This document shows, one piece after another, positions 3,123 to 23,849 of a stretch of DNA of 57,652 nucleotides. Where the stretch lies: NCBI GenBank assembly GCA_030148325.1, contig JASBTR010000109.1, positions 1 through 57,652 on the forward strand, read 5' to 3'. Source of the DNA: Gammaproteobacteria bacterium (GTDB taxonomy: Bacteria; Pseudomonadota; Gammaproteobacteria; UBA6429; Thiohalophilaceae). The translations under genes and the position numbers were made by a program. The notes under the pieces are model-generated. The model ran no database searches. It worked only from the letters and a program-made list of their open reading frames with translations, and had not been told where the DNA came from. Numbering within the stretch: the stretch's first letter is position 1; every line of letters starts with the position of its first letter.

Positions 3123-3281
3123 GGCGGGAAAGTCACCTTAACAATCAGTTATTTGATTTGTATAAGTATATCGGCAAATGGGTGGTTTTGATTAGCAAAA
3201 ATCCACTGTTCGGTAGAGAAATCATGTTCAGGTTGCACAAAAAAGTACAGAAACCTCCTCCGTCGCCGATACAGAGGGGGT

Positions 3282-6137
3282 ATGAATTCATTAGTTGTGC
3301 GAGAGAACAGGCAGGGAGGCGAGCTTGATTTTAAGCTCATCAAGCAGCGGTTTAGCAGGCTGAATCGGGCCAGATTGCAGCGTGTTAATTCAGATCTGCG
3401 TCCCAGTCAGCGCGACTTCATCCAGTTATTGCCCCTGCTGTTTCATGTTAACCATCCCATCCTGCCCGGCTACGTATCGAAGACCACGCCGGTTGGCCTG
3501 CCTGAATACCTGCCCAGCAAGGAAACACTGGCCGCCGCGCGGCGCCTGTCGAAAAGTTTCGCCTGGAAAAAACGCGCCTACCGCAAGTTCAATATTCACG
3601 GGCTTTACCTCATGGGCAGCACCGGTACGATTGCATACAGTGAGAAAAGTGACTTTGATATCTGGGTGGTGCATGACAGCGATCTGGATGGTGGGCAGAT
3701 AGAAGAGCTGCAGGCCAGGGCCAGTGCAATTGAGGCGTGGGCGTCCAGCATGGAGGTGGAGGCTAACGTGTTTCTGGTGGATGCGCGCCAGTTTAAACGG
3801 GGCGAGCATGGTCACCTGAGCAGTGAGAGCAGCGGTAGCGCTCTGCACTATCTTCTGCTGGAAGAATTTTACCGCACCAGTGTCCTGCTGGCCGGACGCT
3901 ACCCGCTATGGTGGCTGGTGCCTCCGGATCAGGAGGCCAACTATGACGCCTTTGTCGAAGATATCAAACGTAAACGGTATATCCACAGTCGTGAGCATAT
4001 TGATTTCGGCGGGCTGGCCGATATTCGCGCGGAAGAGTTTTATGGCGCGACCCTCTGGCTGCTCTACAAGGGCATCAATTCGCCCTACAAGTCGATTCTG
4101 AAGATCCTGCTTATGGAGGCCTACGCCAGTGAATATCCGCAGATTGATTTGCTCGGTGTACGTTTCAAGCGTGCGGTTTATGAAGGTGAGGATGATATCA
4201 ATGCACTGGATCCCTACCTGATGATGATGGCTAAGGTGGATGAATACCTGCTGCAGTACAATCAGGAAAAGCGCCTGGATCTGGTGCGTCGCAGTTTTTA
4301 TTTCAAGGTCGGCGAACAATTGAGCGAAGATAATGGCAGCAGCAAAAACAGCTGGCGGCGTGAGCGGATGGCCGAGCTGGTAAACCGCTGGGGCTGGAAC
4401 AGTGGGCAGATTCAGCGCCTGGATTCAAGGCAGGAGTGGAAAATCAGCAGTGTTCTGGAAGAGCGCAAGGCACTGATACGAGAGTTCACCGGCAGCTACC
4501 GTTTTCTTTCGCTGTTTACCCGCTCGCGTGCGGAAACCAGCAACCTCATCAGCCAGACTGATCTCAATGTGCTGGGGCGTAAACTCTACGCTGCCTTTGA
4601 GCGCAAGGCGGGCAAGATCGATATCGTCTACAAGGGTATCACCAGTGATCTGCGTGAAAGCCACCTGTCTTTTCATCAGCTGCTCAGTGACAGCGGACAG
4701 GAATACTGGATGGTATACAGCGGTGTGGTGAATGAGGAAGAGATCTACGCCGCCACACCCATGAAGCGTGGTTATAGCCTGATAGAAATCATGGCCTGGT
4801 GTTATTTCAATAAAATCATCAACCGTCAGACCATCCTCGCCCTTTATGCTCGAGATAGTGATTTGACCGAAAAGGAACTCTATTTGCTGGTGGAAAACAT
4901 GTCGCGCCTGTTCCCGGAAGACGTGTTGGCGACCAGCTCGATTTACGATATGCGCCAGCCGGCCAGGATCAATGCGGTTGCCACATTTATTAATGTTGGA
5001 CTGGATCCGTTTTCTGCACAGACGCGCAAAGGTAAACATATCAGCAGCAGCCGCACCGATGCGCTGAAGTATGGCGGCAAGAAAGAAAACCTGACCCTGA
5101 GCATTGATCAGATCATTGTCACCAGCTGGAATGAAGTGCTGACCTTCAAGTTTTATGATATTGAAGGCCTGTTGAAATGTATCCAGGGTTATATGAAATG
5201 GTCATCAGCGGGGAAAGACAAAAATCTGCCGCCCATCAACGCCTTCAGTTTTTCCTCATATCGTGGCACTTCGATAGCACGGCGTATCGAGAGCCTGTTT
5301 GCGGAAATCATCAACACTTTTTACAGTGGCGCTTACCCCGGAGGAACACGCTATATTCTGGGCGTTGAGTGGGAATACTATGTGCTGAGTATGGAGGATG
5401 GCGTACTCCAGTATGAAAAAGCAGGTAATATTGATGATTTATATCGTTACCTTTCCCTGCCGGTAGATTGCTTCCGTCCGCTGATTTTTGATTCCCAGAC
5501 CCTGACTGATGATGTGCTTTCCCTGGTTTATAGAAACAATCGCCAGGCGGATGTGCAGTGTTTTTTCGAAGTACGCAACGGCGAAGTCGATGTCTATGTG
5601 CTGGATGAGCGGGGCTCATTGTGTCGCCAGAGCCGACCTTTTTATGATGTGGCGGGTCTGGTCAGGCATTTCCAGGAGTACTTTGAATCAGTGCGGGAGC
5701 GAATGGCCTATTCGATACAGGCCGGTTCCGGTTTTCAGGACGTATTGTTTTATCGGATCGACCGAGGGCTAAACGGGCGGCGGGAAATCTATCGCTATGG
5801 AGAAAATAATTTTATTCGCACGGCGTCCTATATAAAGTTGCAGGTGATGGTGGATCGCAGCGATGACAATATAATTTTCACATTGTATTGTGAGGACAGG
5901 GAGTTTTCCAATCTTGAGTTCGGAGAGCTGATCTATCGGGAGGCGGCGCGACATATTCTTTCCCTGCGGGGGAGTGGTGAAGCCTATCCCATCTATATTA
6001 CTGATCTGGATCTATCTAACGGCATGCTGCTGGATGCGGGTGTCGAACAGGTGCAGACGGTACATTATCTGCATTACAAGAAAATCATTGAAGAACGGCT
6101 GTTGGAAGAAATAAAACGGATTACTGAAAGTGGCTAA
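3282..6137 (+). CDS. cyaA: Class I adenylate cyclase
   Basis: A 951-residue protein of the enterobacterial-type (class I) adenylate cyclases, which convert ATP to cAMP. The catalytic nucleotidyltransferase signature is near the N-terminus: MGSTGTIAYS with SDFDIWVV (GS at 112-113, acidic residues D124 and D126). The long C-terminal part matches the regulatory region of the family, and the protein is somewhat longer than the E. coli enzyme of about 850 residues. A purine-rich GAGGGGG ends two bases before the ATG and supports this start. The gene stands alone, divergent from the PAS/GGDEF gene and convergent with the DUF302 gene. Confidence 0.95.
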   Translation: MNSLVVRENRQGGELDFKLIKQRFSRLNRARLQRVNSDLRPSQRDFIQLLPLLFHVNHPILPGYVSKTTPVGLPEYLPSKETLAAARRLSKSFAWKKRAYRKFNIHGLYLMGSTGTIAYSEKSDFDIWVVHDSDLDGGQIEELQARASAIEAWASSMEVEANVFLVDARQFKRGEHGHLSSESSGSALHYLLLEEFYRTSVLLAGRYPLWWLVPPDQEANYDAFVEDIKRKRYIHSREHIDFGGLADIRAEEFYGATLWLLYKGINSPYKSILKILLMEAYASEYPQIDLLGVRFKRAVYEGEDDINALDPYLMMMAKVDEYLLQYNQEKRLDLVRRSFYFKVGEQLSEDNGSSKNSWRRERMAELVNRWGWNSGQIQRLDSRQEWKISSVLEERKALIREFTGSYRFLSLFTRSRAETSNLISQTDLNVLGRKLYAAFERKAGKIDIVYKGITSDLRESHLSFHQLLSDSGQEYWMVYSGVVNEEEIYAATPMKRGYSLIEIMAWCYFNKIINRQTILALYARDSDLTEKELYLLVENMSRLFPEDVLATSSIYDMRQPARINAVATFINVGLDPFSAQTRKGKHISSSRTDALKYGGKKENLTLSIDQIIVTSWNEVLTFKFYDIEGLLKCIQGYMKWSSAGKDKNLPPINAFSFSSYRGTSIARRIESLFAEIINTFYSGAYPGGTRYILGVEWEYYVLSMEDGVLQYEKAGNIDDLYRYLSLPVDCFRPLIFDSQTLTDDVLSLVYRNNRQADVQCFFEVRNGEVDVYVLDERGSLCRQSRPFYDVAGLVRHFQEYFESVRERMAYSIQAGSGFQDVLFYRIDRGLNGRREIYRYGENNFIRTASYIKLQVMVDRSDDNIIFTLYCEDREFSNLEFGELIYREAARHILSLRGSGEAYPIYITDLDLSNGMLLDAGVEQVQTVHYLHYKKIIEERLLEEIKRITESG

Positions 6138-17090: not shown

Positions 17091-17132
17091 CCTTCATTGC
17101 CTAAGAATAAATAATAAAGGGGAGAGATGATC

Positions 17133-19568
17133 ATGCGGCGACTGGAAGAGCACTTTGGTGAATGGGTGTTGAAATATCGCTGGCCGGTAATTATCGTTTG
17201 TCTGATTCTGGTATTCCTTTGCGCTTCGGGCATGAAGAATCTCGCCATGTCGACCAACTACCGCGTGTTTTTCAGCGCCGACAATCCCCAGCTGCTGGCC
17301 TTCGATGCGCTGGAAAATACCTATACCAAGAATGACAACGTGATGTTCGTGCTGACCCCGAAAAACGGGGATGTCTTCAGCCGTGATGCGCTGGAGGCGG
17401 TGGAGACGCTGACCAGCAAAGCCTGGCAGCTACCCTATTCTATCCGTGTGGATTCCATCAGCAATTTCCAGCACACCGAGGCAGAAGGTGATGATCTGGT
17501 TGTGCGTGACCTGTATGAAAATGCACAGCAGCTCAGTGATGCAGAACTGAAAAAAATCCGGCAGGTGGCGCTGGCCGAACCCCTGCTGGTGGGAAGGCTG
17601 ATTTCACCGGATGCGCGGGTGACAGCGGTCAACGCCACGATTCAGCTTCCCGGTAAAAATGAAATGACCGAGGTGCCGGAAGTGACCGCCGCAGCACGCC
17701 AGATGGCGGAGGAAATTCGTACGGCCTACCCGGATATGGAGGTCAGACTGACGGGCATGGTGCTAATGAACAATGCCTTCTCGGAAGCCTCCATGGGCGA
17801 CATGCAGAGTCTGGTGCCACTGAGTTTTCTTTTTATGATGGTGTTTCTCGCCGTGCTGTTGCGCGATTTTCAGCGCGGTCTGCCGGCGTTCATTCTGGTT
17901 GCGGGCGCGCTGGCGGGGATCGGGGTGCTGCTAAGCATGGGCGGCCTGCCACCGCCGGCGGTGGCGGTCTTGCTCCTGGTTGGGTTTGGCCTGCTGCTGT
18001 GGTCGTTTCCGGCAACCATGTCGACCCTGCTGGTGATCATGTTGTCCATCATTGCGGCGATGGGTATCGGTGGGCATATCGGCTTTCCGATCACGCCGCC
18101 ATCAGCTTCGGCGCCGACCATTATTCTCACCGTCGCGATCGCCAGTTCGGTGCATATCCTGATTACGCTGTTATTTGAGATGCATCATGGCAAGGACAAG
18201 CGTGCTGCTATTAATGAAAGCCTGCGGATTAATCTGCAGCCGGTGTTTCTCGCCAGTGTCACCACCGTGATTGGTTTTCTGAGCATGAACTTTTCTGAAG
18301 TGCCGCCTTTCCGACATCTGGGAAATTTTGTCGCGTTTGGGGTGGTGGCTTCCTTTATTCTCTCGGTTAGCTTCCTGCCTGCGCTGATGTCCCTGCTGCC
18401 AATTAAGGTGCGTACAATCGAACATGGCAAGGATACCCTGATGATCCAGCTGGGTGATTTTGTCGTACGCCAGCGCAGTCGCCTGTTAGTCGGGATGTCT
18501 GCGCTGGTGATTACCCTGGTGCTCTTTATTCCTCGCAATGAACTGAATGACGTCTTCGTGCATTACTTTGATGAAACGGTGCCCTTTCGTGTGGATGCCG
18601 ACTACACCACCAGCCATCTTACCGGCCTGTATCTGGCCGACTATTCGCTGCCTGCGGGTGAAAGCGGCGGGATTAGCAATCCGGCGTTTCTGCGTGAGGT
18701 GGCTGACTTCGCCGAATGGTGGCGACAGCAGACGGAAACCCTGCACGTTAATGCGTTTACGGACACCATGAAACGCCTGAACATGAACATGCACGGTGAT
18801 GATCCGGCCTGGTATCGGCTGCCGGATGAGCGAAATCTGGCTGCACAGTACCTGCTGCTGTATGAAATGTCCCTGCCCTACGGACTGGATCTCAACAACC
18901 AGATCAGCGTGGACAAGGCCAAAACTCGGCTCACGGTTTCCCTGAAAACACTGTCGAGTAATGAAGTTCTCGGACTGGATGAGCGTGCGCAGGAATGGCT
19001 GGAAAAGAATACCCGCATCATCAAACACACGCTGGGCAGTGGTCCAACCCTGATGTTCGCGCACATCGGCCAGCGCAATATCATCAGCATGCTGGGTGGC
19101 ACTACGGTTGCGCTGATCATGATCTCCATGATTCTGATCTTCGCCCTGCGCTCACTCAAGATTGGCCTGATAAGTATGCTCCCCAATCTTGTCCCGGCGG
19201 CGATGGGGTTTGGACTCTGGGGCCTGCTGGTGGGTGAGGTCGGGCTGGCATTGTCGATCGTCACCGGCATGACGCTGGGTATCGTAGTGGATGATACGGT
19301 GCACTTTCTCAGCAAGTATCTGCGCGCCCGGCGAGAAAACGGGCTGAACAGTGAAGACGCTGTGCGCTACGCGTTTAGTCATGTCGGTCGGGCGCTGATT
19401 ACCACCTCGATCGTGCTGGTGGCCGGGTTCATCGTACTGGCCTTTTCCAGCTTCAAGCTGAACGCCGGCATGGGTATGTTGACAGCCATTGTTATTACCT
19501 TTGCGCTGCTGGCAGATTTATTTCTGTTGCCACCGCTGTTAATGAAACTGGATGGGGAAAAAGCATGA
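17133..19568 (+). CDS. RND-superfamily (MMPL-type) exporter
   Basis: An inner-membrane protein of 811 residues built from two repeats, each with one helix, a large periplasmic domain and a bundle of helices. The second-half helix contains GMTLGIVVDDTVHF, the proton-relay acidic pair typical of the group; the matching first-half helix (AIASSVHILI) lacks acids. This subgroup is predicted to move lipids or other hydrophobic compounds out of the inner membrane. GGGGAG at 17119-17124 sits eight bases before the ATG at 17133 and directly abuts the ATG at 17127, so 17133 is preferred. Its stop overlaps the start of the LolA-like gene. Confidence 0.9.
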   Translation: MRRLEEHFGEWVLKYRWPVIIVCLILVFLCASGMKNLAMSTNYRVFFSADNPQLLAFDALENTYTKNDNVMFVLTPKNGDVFSRDALEAVETLTSKAWQLPYSIRVDSISNFQHTEAEGDDLVVRDLYENAQQLSDAELKKIRQVALAEPLLVGRLISPDARVTAVNATIQLPGKNEMTEVPEVTAAARQMAEEIRTAYPDMEVRLTGMVLMNNAFSEASMGDMQSLVPLSFLFMMVFLAVLLRDFQRGLPAFILVAGALAGIGVLLSMGGLPPPAVAVLLLVGFGLLLWSFPATMSTLLVIMLSIIAAMGIGGHIGFPITPPSASAPTIILTVAIASSVHILITLLFEMHHGKDKRAAINESLRINLQPVFLASVTTVIGFLSMNFSEVPPFRHLGNFVAFGVVASFILSVSFLPALMSLLPIKVRTIEHGKDTLMIQLGDFVVRQRSRLLVGMSALVITLVLFIPRNELNDVFVHYFDETVPFRVDADYTTSHLTGLYLADYSLPAGESGGISNPAFLREVADFAEWWRQQTETLHVNAFTDTMKRLNMNMHGDDPAWYRLPDERNLAAQYLLLYEMSLPYGLDLNNQISVDKAKTRLTVSLKTLSSNEVLGLDERAQEWLEKNTRIIKHTLGSGPTLMFAHIGQRNIISMLGGTTVALIMISMILIFALRSLKIGLISMLPNLVPAAMGFGLWGLLVGEVGLALSIVTGMTLGIVVDDTVHFLSKYLRARRENGLNSEDAVRYAFSHVGRALITTSIVLVAGFIVLAFSSFKLNAGMGMLTAIVITFALLADLFLLPPLLMKLDGEKA

Positions 19569-20344
19569 AAACGATTACAGGTATTCTCATACTCTTAATG
19601 TTGTCGAATTATATTCAGGCTGAAACAGCCGAAGAAAAGGGGTTGGCGATTGCTGTGGAAGCAGACAAACGTGATAGCGGCTGGGGCGATCAAAAAGCGT
19701 CTATGCAGATGATACTGCGAAATCGTCACGGCGATAAAAGCATTCGCGAGATGCACACCAAATCTCTGGAAGTCGAGGGCGATGGCGATAAAACGCTGAT
19801 AGTCTTTGATCGCCCGCGTGATGTGAAAGGCACTGCCTTTCTCAGCTTTACCCATGCGATAAAACCGGATGATCAATGGATCTATCTACCGGCCTTAAAA
19901 CGAGTCAAACGCATTTCATCCAGCAACAAGTCCGGTCCTTTCATGGGCAGTGAGTTTGCCTATGAAGACATCTCTTCCCAGGAAATTGAAAAATACAGCT
20001 ATAAGTTCATCAAGGATGATGTTTATGAAGGGCGGCCGGTTTTTGTTATGGAACGTTTTCCACAATACAAAAACTCGGGCTACACACGCATGATCACCTG
20101 GCTGGACAAGGAGACCTACAGTCCGCTTAAAATTGATTTTTACGATCGCAAGAACAGCCTGCTGAAAACGCTGACCTACCATGATTATAAACAGTACCTG
20201 GGCAAGTACTGGCGCGCGGACCGTATGGAAATGGTCAACCATATCACCGGCAAGAGCACGACCCTGCTGTGGAAAGATTATAAGTTCAATAACGGCTTAA
20301 CAGATCGCGACTTCGACAAGAACAGCCTGAAGCGCGCGCGATAA
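19565..20344 (+). CDS. LolA-like outer-membrane lipoprotein-sorting family protein
   Basis: A 259-residue exported protein with signal peptide MKTITGILILLMLSNYIQA. The sequence around WIYLPALKRVKRISSSNKSGPF is typical of the LolA-like group annotated as outer membrane lipoprotein-sorting protein, whose half-barrel fold carries acyl chains across the periplasm. It overlaps the exporter gene by four bases (ATGA). Next to an MMPL-type exporter and an outer-membrane barrel, it is a good candidate for the periplasmic shuttle of a lipid or lipid-like cargo. The cargo cannot be read from the sequence. Confidence 0.88.
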   Translation: MKTITGILILLMLSNYIQAETAEEKGLAIAVEADKRDSGWGDQKASMQMILRNRHGDKSIREMHTKSLEVEGDGDKTLIVFDRPRDVKGTAFLSFTHAIKPDDQWIYLPALKRVKRISSSNKSGPFMGSEFAYEDISSQEIEKYSYKFIKDDVYEGRPVFVMERFPQYKNSGYTRMITWLDKETYSPLKIDFYDRKNSLLKTLTYHDYKQYLGKYWRADRMEMVNHITGKSTTLLWKDYKFNNGLTDRDFDKNSLKRAR

Positions 20345-20388
20345 TAGCGGGCATAACAAATGCTTGTCTGGATGGGACTGATATTGAT

Positions 20389-20539
20389 CGCAGAGAACGC
20401 AAAGGCGCAGAGACGCAGAGACGCAGAGCAATGAAATTGTTGTTTTTCTCTGCGCCTCTGCACCGTGAGAATCTCGCTTCGCGAGCTTTATTCGGTACTT
20501 CTTACGCTTTGCTCCGGTCGCGCCTTTGCGTTCTCTGCG
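20389..20539. repeat. Family A palindrome overlapping the 5' end of the barrel gene
   Basis: CGCAGAGAACGCAAAGGCGC (20389-20408) and its exact 20-base complement (20520-20539) flank an interior with further CGCAGAGA units and a GCTTCGCGAGC hairpin. The start codon of the outer-membrane protein lies inside the element, and the right arm is translated as RLCVLCV. Confidence 0.85.
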
Positions 20540-21717
20540 TTAATTACGTGCTGCTTGCTGCTGTCGCGCCATTGTCGGCTGTGGCGCTGGAGCAGGATTT
20601 CTCCGGTTATGTAGGGCTGGAATATCGAAATTTTCTCTCTCAACCTTCCGACCCTCGCCAGCAGGGCGATAATCTTTCCCTCTCTATCGAGCCGGAATAT
20701 TATTCTGAATGGGATAACGGCCGCCAGAGTTTTACTTTCAAACCCTTTGCCCGTCTGGATCAGGGCGATGCTGAACGCAGTCATTGGGATATTCGTGAAA
20801 TGATGTGGGTGAAGGCGGCCAATGACTGGGAACTGCATGCCGGTGTTGGCAAGGTATTCTGGGGTGTCACCGAAGTGGTGCATCTGGTGGATATTGTCAA
20901 CCAGACTGATCTGGTGGAAGATTTTTATCTTAATGAGCGGCTGGGACAGCCGATGCTCAACCTGATTCTGATAAGAGACTGGGGCACACTGGATCTGTTT
21001 GTGTTACCGGGATTCCGTGAGCGTACCTTTCCCGGTGTCAAAGGGCGACCGCGCAGCATTCCCTGGGTGGATACGTCACAGGCCGTTTATGAATCCTCGC
21101 AGGGTAAGCGGCATGTGGATTATGCGGCACGCTGGTCGCAGACGCTGGGTGACTGGGATCTGGGTGTAAGTTATTTCAACGGCACCAGCCGTGAACCGCG
21201 TTTCACCCTCGGCAGCAGCGGGGGGGAAGCCGTCTATATTCCGAATTACGATTTGATCCGACAGTATTCCACCGATATACAGGCTACTCTGGATGCCTGG
21301 TTGCTGAAATTCGAGGCATACTATCGCCGCGGTCAGGGGCCGGCCTATTACGCCTCGACCGGTGGCATTGAATACAGTTTTTACGGCGTGTTTGAAAGTA
21401 ATGCAGATTTAGGTATCCTGGTCGAATATATGTATGATGAACGGGGAGACAGGGCACCTACACCGTTTCAGAATGATTATTTCATCGGCACGCGCCTGAC
21501 ACTGAACGATGAACAGAGCAGCGAGCTGCTGGGTGGGATCGTGCGTGATTTCAGGTATAACCGCTATTATTTTCTGCTCGAAGCCAGCCGCCGGCTCGGT
21601 GATGACTGGAAACTATCTGTAAATGCGCTGAGCTTTGCCAGGCCGCCGATTACCGATCCGGGCTATTCATTTCGCAACGATAATTACCTGCAACTGGAAC
21701 TGCAGTATTATTTCTAG
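20431..21717 (+). CDS. Outer-membrane beta-barrel protein of the export module
   Basis: A 428-residue protein that I do not assign to a named family. After the leader it alternates aromatic and polar residues as in outer-membrane strands, and it ends in LQLELQYYF with the terminal phenylalanine that marks BAM substrates. The first 40 or so residues (up to RLCVLCV) come from a family A repeat; the hydrophobic core of the signal peptide (YVLLAAVAPLSAVA) follows. No internal ATG gives a better leader; a GTG at codon 40 would leave it without basic residues. It lies 86 bases after the LolA-like gene and probably forms the outer-membrane step of the same pathway. It ends in TAG. Confidence 0.75.
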   Translation: MKLLFFSAPLHRENLASRALFGTSYALLRSRLCVLCVNYVLLAAVAPLSAVALEQDFSGYVGLEYRNFLSQPSDPRQQGDNLSLSIEPEYYSEWDNGRQSFTFKPFARLDQGDAERSHWDIREMMWVKAANDWELHAGVGKVFWGVTEVVHLVDIVNQTDLVEDFYLNERLGQPMLNLILIRDWGTLDLFVLPGFRERTFPGVKGRPRSIPWVDTSQAVYESSQGKRHVDYAARWSQTLGDWDLGVSYFNGTSREPRFTLGSSGGEAVYIPNYDLIRQYSTDIQATLDAWLLKFEAYYRRGQGPAYYASTGGIEYSFYGVFESNADLGILVEYMYDERGDRAPTPFQNDYFIGTRLTLNDEQSSELLGGIVRDFRYNRYYFLLEASRRLGDDWKLSVNALSFARPPITDPGYSFRNDNYLQLELQYYF

Positions 21718-21741
21718 GATTTAGATGGAGATGTAATCCTC

Positions 21742-21927
21742 GCGGAGGACGCAGAGGCGCAAAGACGCGGAGTTCTCAATATTGCCTCGATACTGTAAGT
21801 TCGCGTCCGGCTTCCTTGCAGGTCGATAGGTTTTGCCTTTCAGGCTTTATTCGTCCTACGGGGGTGGATGAAGCTAAAAAATAAAAACCCTGCGCCTCCG
21901 CGTCTTTGCGTTCTCTGCGTTTTTAAC
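21742..21927. repeat. Family A element between convergent genes
   Basis: GCGGAGGACGCAGAGGCGC (from 21742) and CTGCGCCTCCGCGTCTTTGCG (from 21890) are inverted, imperfect copies. The right arm ends a few bases from the stop codon of the 637-residue protein on the other strand. A TAGGTTTTGCCTTTCAGGC segment fills the loop; no gene is seen in it. Confidence 0.75.
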
Positions 21928-21935
21928 TCCTGCTT

Positions 21936-23849
21936 TCAGATCAACTGCAGTCGCAAAATCCCTTCCATTTTCTCTGCGGTTTCCGATTTACCGGTACGGC
22001 TGTCGCCGACCAGAGCAACGGTCACACTGACCTCGCCGGTATCTTCCGTTTGACGTTTACGTTTTTCCATTGCCTGTGTTTTGATCAGGCCGATCAAATC
22101 TCTGGCCAGTTGTACCGGGCCCTCCTGTTCTACATCCTCGCGGCTATTAAAGCCACAGCGTTTGATGTCATCATCGTTGTTGCCTTCATAGGCGCCGGCC
22201 ATTAACTGGCTGTGGGCGACGCCGACCTTGAGTTCGCCACGTGAGATGAGGATGTTCATGTCGCCGATGAAACCTTTTTCATTCTCGGAAAATTTTTCGT
22301 ACAGATCCGGATGCAGGACCGTGCCATCGCTGTCCTTGAGCAGGGGGAAGGGGTTGGCCCAGTAACTGCTCTCCTTGGCACCACGATGGGTCTGGGTAGA
22401 ACCGGCGGCCACTCGTTCACCGAGGCGGAAATGCTGCAGGGCATCCTCGATATGCATATCAGCCTGGATGGTGGATTCACCCGGCTCAATCAGAGAGAAG
22501 TTATTCATGTAGAGCAGCACGTCCAGCGGGTCGCCGCGGAACAGTTCACCGATATCGGTGACCGGTACGATCTGGCGGGCATTGGAGCCGGTATCCTTGT
22601 TATAGCCGACCTCGCGTCCGGCCATCTGCATCTTGGCCTGATCGCTAAAACCATCGAGACAGGCGAAGGCGCCGGTTTCGGTGCCATAGAAAACCGGACG
22701 GGTGATCCTGTCTTCACCCTTACGCAGACTGATTTTTCCCATGTCGTCTGCCTTGATCAGCATCTCGGCAATATACGGTTCGTCGTTTTCATCAAAGCGC
22801 ACCACGTAGCGGGTACAGCCGCAATGCAGGGGCAGGTCGCCATCGAGAATGGCGAGTACGTTGTGCAGGGTCAGCACCGGCTTTTTTGCGTAACCGAAAT
22901 ATTTCAGCTCATCGATATTAGGCACCACGCCGATCAGCACATTGTTTTTCCGATCGTGGTAATAGCCCAGGTCCTTTTCATGGGCATTGGGATCGCCAAA
23001 GAAAAACAGACCGTCGGCCCGGCGCTCATCGGTGATGTCACTGATGCGGGTAAAGGGGAACAGATTAAGCAGGCCCGGCTCCATTTCGATACAGCCGCGT
23101 GACTTGTGAATATAGGCAATGATCAGTGAGGTGCCGACCTGCAGGGGAACCGAGACCCAGTCCTTGCTGATGAAATTATCCAGATCCAGGGGGTTATGTG
23201 CCAGCTCATAAAAAGGTCTGGCGCGCTTGTTCGACGGGGTGGAATAGTCCACCCCGGTCTGGATGTCGGCAGCGATGGTCAGCGGCACATGGGCCAGTTG
23301 CACATAGTCGGCCGGGTAGTTGAAATAGTGGCCGGAAATTTCACCGGCGGTGACATTGGGTGAGGCATCCATGCCCGAGCTGCGGCGCACGCCCTGATCC
23401 AGGCCGACATTGTTGAGTAGCTGCCGGCGGGTTTCCAGGATCAGATCAGAGAGGGTGCCGGCCTTGTCGGTGACCTTGTCCTTGACTGTGTCGGGGGTTT
23501 CCAGTCCGGTAGAAACCACGTCGTTTTGCAGGCGCACCAGACGCGAATAACCGCTGCCGCGGTAATGGTGAAAAGCGCCATCCATGAATTTGATCAGTTC
23601 GCGCGCACGTTCTTTTTCTTTCGCACTATCAAAACCGTGGGATTCGAGAATCTTGATCAGGTCGCGCACCTTGACCGAGTGGATGTAATCGATCTTCTGT
23701 TTTGCCTCGTGTTTCTGCACATCGGCACGCTGCTGCAGATCCTCGATGAACTGGGTTTTGTAGATTTTCAGGAAGCGGGCAAAGGCCAGACTGCGCAGCA
23801 ACTGGCCGGGCGTACTGCAACCATCGCGAATTTCAAGGATCTTTTCCAT
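21936..23849 (-). CDS. Unrecognised 637-residue protein ending in an HPr-kinase-like P-loop
   Basis: I do not recognise the family with confidence. The N-terminal 130 residues are helical and charged; the middle part is rich in beta-type segments with a notable PLHCGCTRYVVRFDENDEP stretch. The last 23 residues hold VALVGDSRTGKSETAE, which matches Walker A and in particular the GDSGIGKSE pattern of HPr kinase and PEPCK-like kinases. Only 15 residues follow the P-loop, whereas such domains normally continue for 100 or more. The stop lies nine bases before a family A repeat arm, so loss of the 3' end by repeat invasion is possible. DUF2797 is upstream on the same strand. Confidence 0.7.
   Translation of the reverse strand: MEKILEIRDGCSTPGQLLRSLAFARFLKIYKTQFIEDLQQRADVQKHEAKQKIDYIHSVKVRDLIKILESHGFDSAKEKERARELIKFMDGAFHHYRGSGYSRLVRLQNDVVSTGLETPDTVKDKVTDKAGTLSDLILETRRQLLNNVGLDQGVRRSSGMDASPNVTAGEISGHYFNYPADYVQLAHVPLTIAADIQTGVDYSTPSNKRARPFYELAHNPLDLDNFISKDWVSVPLQVGTSLIIAYIHKSRGCIEMEPGLLNLFPFTRISDITDERRADGLFFFGDPNAHEKDLGYYHDRKNNVLIGVVPNIDELKYFGYAKKPVLTLHNVLAILDGDLPLHCGCTRYVVRFDENDEPYIAEMLIKADDMGKISLRKGEDRITRPVFYGTETGAFACLDGFSDQAKMQMAGREVGYNKDTGSNARQIVPVTDIGELFRGDPLDVLLYMNNFSLIEPGESTIQADMHIEDALQHFRLGERVAAGSTQTHRGAKESSYWANPFPLLKDSDGTVLHPDLYEKFSENEKGFIGDMNILISRGELKVGVAHSQLMAGAYEGNNDDDIKRCGFNSREDVEQEGPVQLARDLIGLIKTQAMEKRKRQTEDTGEVSVTVALVGDSRTGKSETAEKMEGILRLQLI

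Follow-up and report, generated by a model that had tools for sequence, protein, structure and literature searches.

A palindromic repeat at the start of a porin-like gene probably supplies its start codon and part of its signal peptide

The window, by which we mean the whole stretch of 57,652 nucleotides that was analysed, is a contig of a draft MAG (211 contigs, 5.45% contamination) from an uncultured gammaproteobacterium. It carries, in operon order, the genes for an MMPL transporter, a LolA-like protein and a predicted outer-membrane β-barrel protein. A family A palindromic element lies across the start of the third gene, and the features around this junction are as follows:

17127–19568 (+), MMPL/RND-family transporter
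19565–20344 (+), LolA-like outer membrane lipoprotein-sorting protein (PF17131)
20360–20434 (+), 24-codon upstream ORF MLVWMGLILIAENAKAQRRRDAEQ, 15 nt past the LolA-like stop codon, its TGA overlapping ATG 20431 (ATGA)
20381–20547 (+), family A palindromic element, delimited by the drop in arm conservation, ends uncertain by 1–2 nt
20389–20408 (+), left arm, perfect 20 bp, CGCAGAGAACGCAAAGGCGC
20399–20461 (+), nested inverted pair (20399–20413 and 20447–20461), an inner hairpin containing ATG 20431
20431–21717 (+), predicted outer-membrane β-barrel protein, 428 aa, open ORF
20431–20433 (+), ATG, first start codon of the barrel frame, 52-residue leader
20509–20511 (+), TTG codon 27, inside the repeat, giving an ordinary 26-residue signal peptide, MLRSRLCVLCVNYVLLAAVAPLSAVA
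20520–20539 (+), right arm, perfect 20 bp, GCGCCTTTGCGTTCTCTGCG, read in the barrel frame as RLCVLC of RLCVLCV
20548–20550 (+), GTG codon 40, first codon past the repeat, 13-residue uncharged leader
21739–21921 (+), second paired copy of the same family, just past the barrel stop codon

The AlphaFold model of the barrel protein is a β-barrel of about 20 strands (pTM 0.69), in which the first strand begins at residue 54, directly past the leader, and residues 1–50 are unstructured (pLDDT about 23). A Foldseek search returned porins (OpdQ/OccK/AlgE) with E-values of about 1e-9, TM-scores of about 0.5 and a sequence identity of ~12%, and no Pfam family was matched by the barrel protein. The model thus points to a porin-like outer-membrane protein, with an antiparallel barrel following the signal peptide. 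Further downstream, an intact ORF of 637 residues (21936–23849, −) has a Walker-like GDSRTGKSE motif near its C-terminus and no match in Pfam or NCBIfam.

The original prediction had placed ATG 20431 between perfect 20-bp arms of a family A palindrome, and the segments 20389–20408 and 20520–20539 are indeed perfect complements, with imperfect pairing that reaches 27 bp. The ends of the element were set from the information content of 83 aligned arms, which is at background level past +7/+8 from the CGCAGAG foot. By these ends the element measures ~167 bp, and codons 1–39 of the barrel gene consist of repeat DNA. ATG 20431 itself lies in the copy-variable part of the element and is not conserved in the family. 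The predicted fold of 20381–20547 has an energy of −80.8 kcal/mol and leaves the ATG paired, so that the hairpin proposed to hide the start region is present in prediction. An Rfam search with the element returned nothing meaningful, no promoter was found on the + strand within 20200–20700, and a literature search for the arm sequence found no paper that prints it.

The repeat is not a chance feature, as the genome contains 86 blast matches to the element stretch, and the arm pattern is matched 196 times in 2.99 Mb against five times for a reversed control pattern. We put the copy number of the family at roughly a hundred in this genome. Only three of 150 genomes of the phylum contain the arm pattern; each of the three congeners has related repeats (48, 58 and 7 matches), which indicates that the family is older than the insertion at the barrel gene. 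Paired elements (n = 33) have a median length of 179 bp, ranging from 96 to 378 bp, and are built of heptad-like CTCTGCG units, with conserved ends that read CGTTWAWTA outward and carry neither a GTAG nor a CGTC tag. Placement was assessed for 32 paired elements in the stretches examined, a subset of all copies, with long ORFs as gene proxies. The elements lay at a median distance of 29 nt from the 3' end of a gene and of 68 nt from a 5' end, two of them were between divergent genes, and the copy at the barrel start was the only one to overlap a gene-like ORF. No target-site duplication is evident in the flanks read, where the ends are uncertain by 1–2 nt and there is no close empty site for comparison.

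About nine family A copies (for example L040, L041 and L044) have in common a 60-bp inner block, CACCGTGAGAACCTCGCTTCGCGAGTTTCATTCGGTACTTCCTACGCTTCGCTCCGGTCGCG, which is absent from the others and could mark either a subfamily or a second element nested within these copies. Seven matches to RAYT-type transposases (PF01797) were found in the genome. Two Y1 transposase halves on G000:C199, at 3164–3364 and 5229–5390 (PF01797 positions 55–121 and 2–55), lie ~1.9 kb apart and may be parts of a single gene that an insertion has interrupted. Three other ORFs that appeared to have repeat-encoded N-termini, which from reading their sequences we take to be argB (L051), an ArsC-like gene (L052) and purH (L095, in the congener G003), were rejected as artefacts, since they have their own downstream starts. 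At the last of these (L095:1-1590, −) a copy of the repeat continues in frame into the purH-like ORF, whose own ATG lies past the repeat, and an automatic annotation of this ORF would be too long.

Orthologues of the barrel gene are present in most searched genomes of the family, usually directly 3' of the LolA-like gene, with starts that fall mostly 0–40 nt past its stop codon. In the congeners G002 and G003 the contig breaks off within the LolA-like gene, and neither genome yielded a full-length barrel orthologue. For 22 orthologues both the start and the cleavage site could be assigned by eye; in all of them the signal peptide comprises 17–28 residues with at least one K or R and is free of the repeat, signal peptides being judged by charge and hydropathy rather than with a trained predictor. 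Downstream of the repeat, the window gene retains only VLLAAVAPLSAVA before LEQDFSG, 13 residues of which none is basic, and such a remnant could hardly function alone as a signal peptide. With nothing more left after the repeat, the repeat must, on this comparison, be the source of the basic n-region and of part of the hydrophobic core (RSRLCVLCVNY), and normal synthesis and export of the remaining gene would be possible only if translation starts within the repeat. These orthologues and the uncharged remnant support the earlier proposal that a mobile palindrome was captured as coding sequence. The accompanying claim of about 40 repeat-coded residues ahead of the hydrophobic core holds for the extent of the repeat DNA, but not for its position, as RLCVLCV lies inside the hydrophobic stretch.

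None of the in-frame starts has a good Shine-Dalgarno sequence, and all of them lie in or beside the strong predicted hairpin. The Shine-Dalgarno energies are −2.9 kcal/mol for ATG 20431, −3.1 kcal/mol for TTG 20509 and −0.2 kcal/mol for GTG 20548, whereas the two preceding genes reach −6.6 and −7.8 kcal/mol. The cost of opening the structure is about 19 kcal/mol at ATG 20431 and 24 kcal/mol at GTG 20548. Three points make ATG 20431 somewhat more likely to be the start than TTG 20509, namely that it is an ATG, that no other start precedes it in the frame and that it overlaps the stop codon of the upstream ORF (ATGA). Such stop–start overlaps are typical of coupled genes, and the 24-codon ORF ending on ATG 20431 suggests coupled reinitiation. 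The leader would be unusually long, as predicted, if ATG 20431 is used; initiation at TTG 20509 would make it an ordinary one. By its position, the upstream ORF may be a remnant of the original barrel start. We do not claim ATG 20360 as the proven original start, since the 40 nt that precede the repeat align with the DNA of the congener G001 no better than shuffled sequences do, and joining the flanks without the repeat gives a signal peptide that lacks K and R, unlike that of every orthologue.

A start at GTG codon 40, which would make the repeat no more than a leader at the 5' end of the mRNA, a reading put forward for many N-terminal REPs, had been named as the case that would speak against capture. 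It is the first codon past the element, the argB, ArsC-like and purH genes beside repeats use downstream starts of their own, and a downstream start is the accepted reading for most 5'-end REPs elsewhere (PMC3733652). Here, however, the leader that it would give has no basic residue and is shorter than those of all 22 orthologues, and the codon lacks a Shine-Dalgarno sequence and is costlier to open than any of the other three sites computed. It is the least plausible of the starts, and we regard this explanation as very improbable.

The closest relative with the locus is G001, a gammaproteobacterial MAG (contig JAADGZ010000133.1), whose mature barrel is 84% identical to that of the window. 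Between the two mature sequences dN is 0.10 and dS about 1.3, and the resulting ratio of 0.07 indicates purifying selection on the gene across this pair of congeners. On contig C41 of G001, the LolA-like stop codon is followed by a different palindrome (GTAGGTTGGGC...GCCCAACCTAC) and then by the signal-peptide region, and a second contig overlaps C41 at 96% over 128 nt and runs on into the barrel. This junction repeat, GTAGGTTGGGC..., starts with GTAG and is of the GTAG type. Different palindromes at the same junction in two species indicate independent insertions, and the shared site may merely reflect that there is little other room for the family here. In G001, a GTG 18 nt past the LolA-like stop codon is open through the palindrome into the signal peptide (MKYLLKKHVGWAEQSEAQ...; L086 3' end, L079:1-200). 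The read-through leader would be MKYLLKKH-repeat-...RRNVRGIWYLCC...ANA, possibly a second repeat-extended leader, while an internal GTG would give MRGIWYLCCLLLTVLVLPLANA instead. Another repeat family of G001 (GGGTTTCGCTTTGCTCTACCCATCC...) also lies 3' of its barrel gene, and in both species repeats are thus found at both ends of the gene.

The G001 junction also bears on whether the window has been assembled correctly. The MAG is a draft in 211 contigs, with contamination of 5.45%, and harbours about a hundred similar repeats, so that a copy might have been pulled in from elsewhere to a locus that in truth has an ordinary start. We give this the least credence of all the explanations considered: the locus is interior to a 57.7-kb contig, the signal-peptide core runs on into the mature protein in a single frame, none of the other copies matches over the full length of the element (best 77%), and in G001 a single contig independently places a repeat at the corresponding junction.

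The explanation that we consider probable is that a palindrome inserted at the start of the barrel gene, which was kept alive by a start codon and part of a signal peptide encoded in the repeat. Comparison with the orthologues shows an insertion, a repeat-coded N-terminus and the loss of any ordinary downstream start, and from these we infer initiation inside the repeat. The element would have inserted just 3' of the LolA-like stop codon, a usual position for the family, and since the next gene of the operon begins almost at once past this codon (mostly 0–40 nt), the insertion would have fallen on the start and the signal-peptide n-region of the barrel gene. The right half of the palindrome would then supply, in frame, a start codon and behind it basic and hydrophobic residues, and this part, together with the remaining core VLLAAVAPLSAVA, could form a usable Sec signal peptide, whose cleavage would leave the mature barrel unchanged. 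Ribosomes probably arrive from the upstream gene or from the 24-codon ORF ending in ATGA; a ribosome translating this ORF would also open the hairpin by unpairing its left arm, and initiation may thus proceed by a reinitiation relay.

Survival of the gene must have needed luck or selection, as only 14 of 198 possible exits from family elements (element × orientation × phase), ~7%, carry an in-frame start, a basic residue and an apolar end. Donation of a start and signal peptide by the repeat is therefore possible but not automatic. The most credible of the rival explanations, though still unlikely, is that the insertion broke the gene, leaving a recent pseudogene that is untranslated or unexported and whose open frame through the repeat is a matter of luck. 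The absence of a start with a good Shine-Dalgarno sequence, the strong predicted hairpin and the perfect arms, which fit a recent insertion, would agree with this, as would the family as a whole, whose arms are largely stop-free and in which some start stands in an open frame at 71 of the 198 exits. An intact frame downstream is no proof of a functional gene if the insertion happened recently. Set against a broken gene are a frame that is intact over 376 codons with a dN/dS of 0.07 relative to the congener, a signal that may mostly predate the insertion, and an exit phase that happens to yield the basic and hydrophobic stretch.

An extension of the preferred explanation is that the barrel start is a recurrent landing site where unrelated palindromes give rise to new leaders, by a relay here and by read-through from the GTG in G001, with the hairpin setting the amount of porin relative to the transporter. 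This is speculative, and we think it improbable.

Most REP-like repeats at the 5' ends of ORFs are dismissed as non-coding, the true start being downstream, and many N-terminal cases are probably extragenic in this way (PMC3733652; PMC10969869). By comparison with its orthologues the barrel gene appears to pass this downstream-start test: having no usable downstream start, it offers a clear case, open to testing, in which repeat DNA would have become indispensable for the start and the signal peptide, and would illustrate how little sequence constraint signal peptides impose. For gene finding, the warning runs both ways, as N-termini of the RLCVLCV type are usually spurious, but not always.

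Repeats within coding sequences, including N-termini, are already known from REPs and RPEs; the barrel gene is a rare but well-supported further case, its special point being that the repeat would carry the start codon and the n-region of a signal peptide. REPs lie occasionally within ORFs or supply stop codons (PMC3733652). Like the GTAG/CGTC-tagged, RAYT-mobilised REP/REPIN elements, family A is palindromic, present in many copies and found near gene 3' ends in a genome with RAYT-type matches, and it shares the extragenic, gene-downstream preference of REPs (29 nt against 68 nt; 2 of 32 divergent). Its elements of ~100–380 bp, with arms of 20–30 bp, CTCTGCG units and no GTAG/CGTC tag, differ from the REP unit of 20–40 bp. 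With ~167 bp, perfect 20-bp arms and no coding capacity, the element at the barrel start resembles MITEs in size and terminal inverted repeats (70–300 bp, repeats of 15–30 bp), for which in-frame fusions are known (PMC10969869). The long signal sequences of autotransporters have an N-extension before an ordinary Sec core and at least 50 residues in all (PMC2805444). The barrel leader resembles them only if ATG 20431 is used, and whereas the extension of the ESPR type recurs across its family, that of the barrel is repeat-derived and absent from the 22 orthologues. The Rickettsia palindromic elements (RPEs) are ~150 bp long and lie in frame within protein-coding genes, some of them decorating the N-termini of expressed proteins (PMC10969869; PMC3733652). 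The family A element is likewise palindromic and apparently coding in frame at an N-terminus, but is unrelated to them in sequence and lacks a terminal CGTC. RPEs are often found in genes, whereas only one of 32 paired family A elements overlaps a gene-like ORF, and the additions that RPEs make stay in the protein, whereas the family A leader would be cleaved off.
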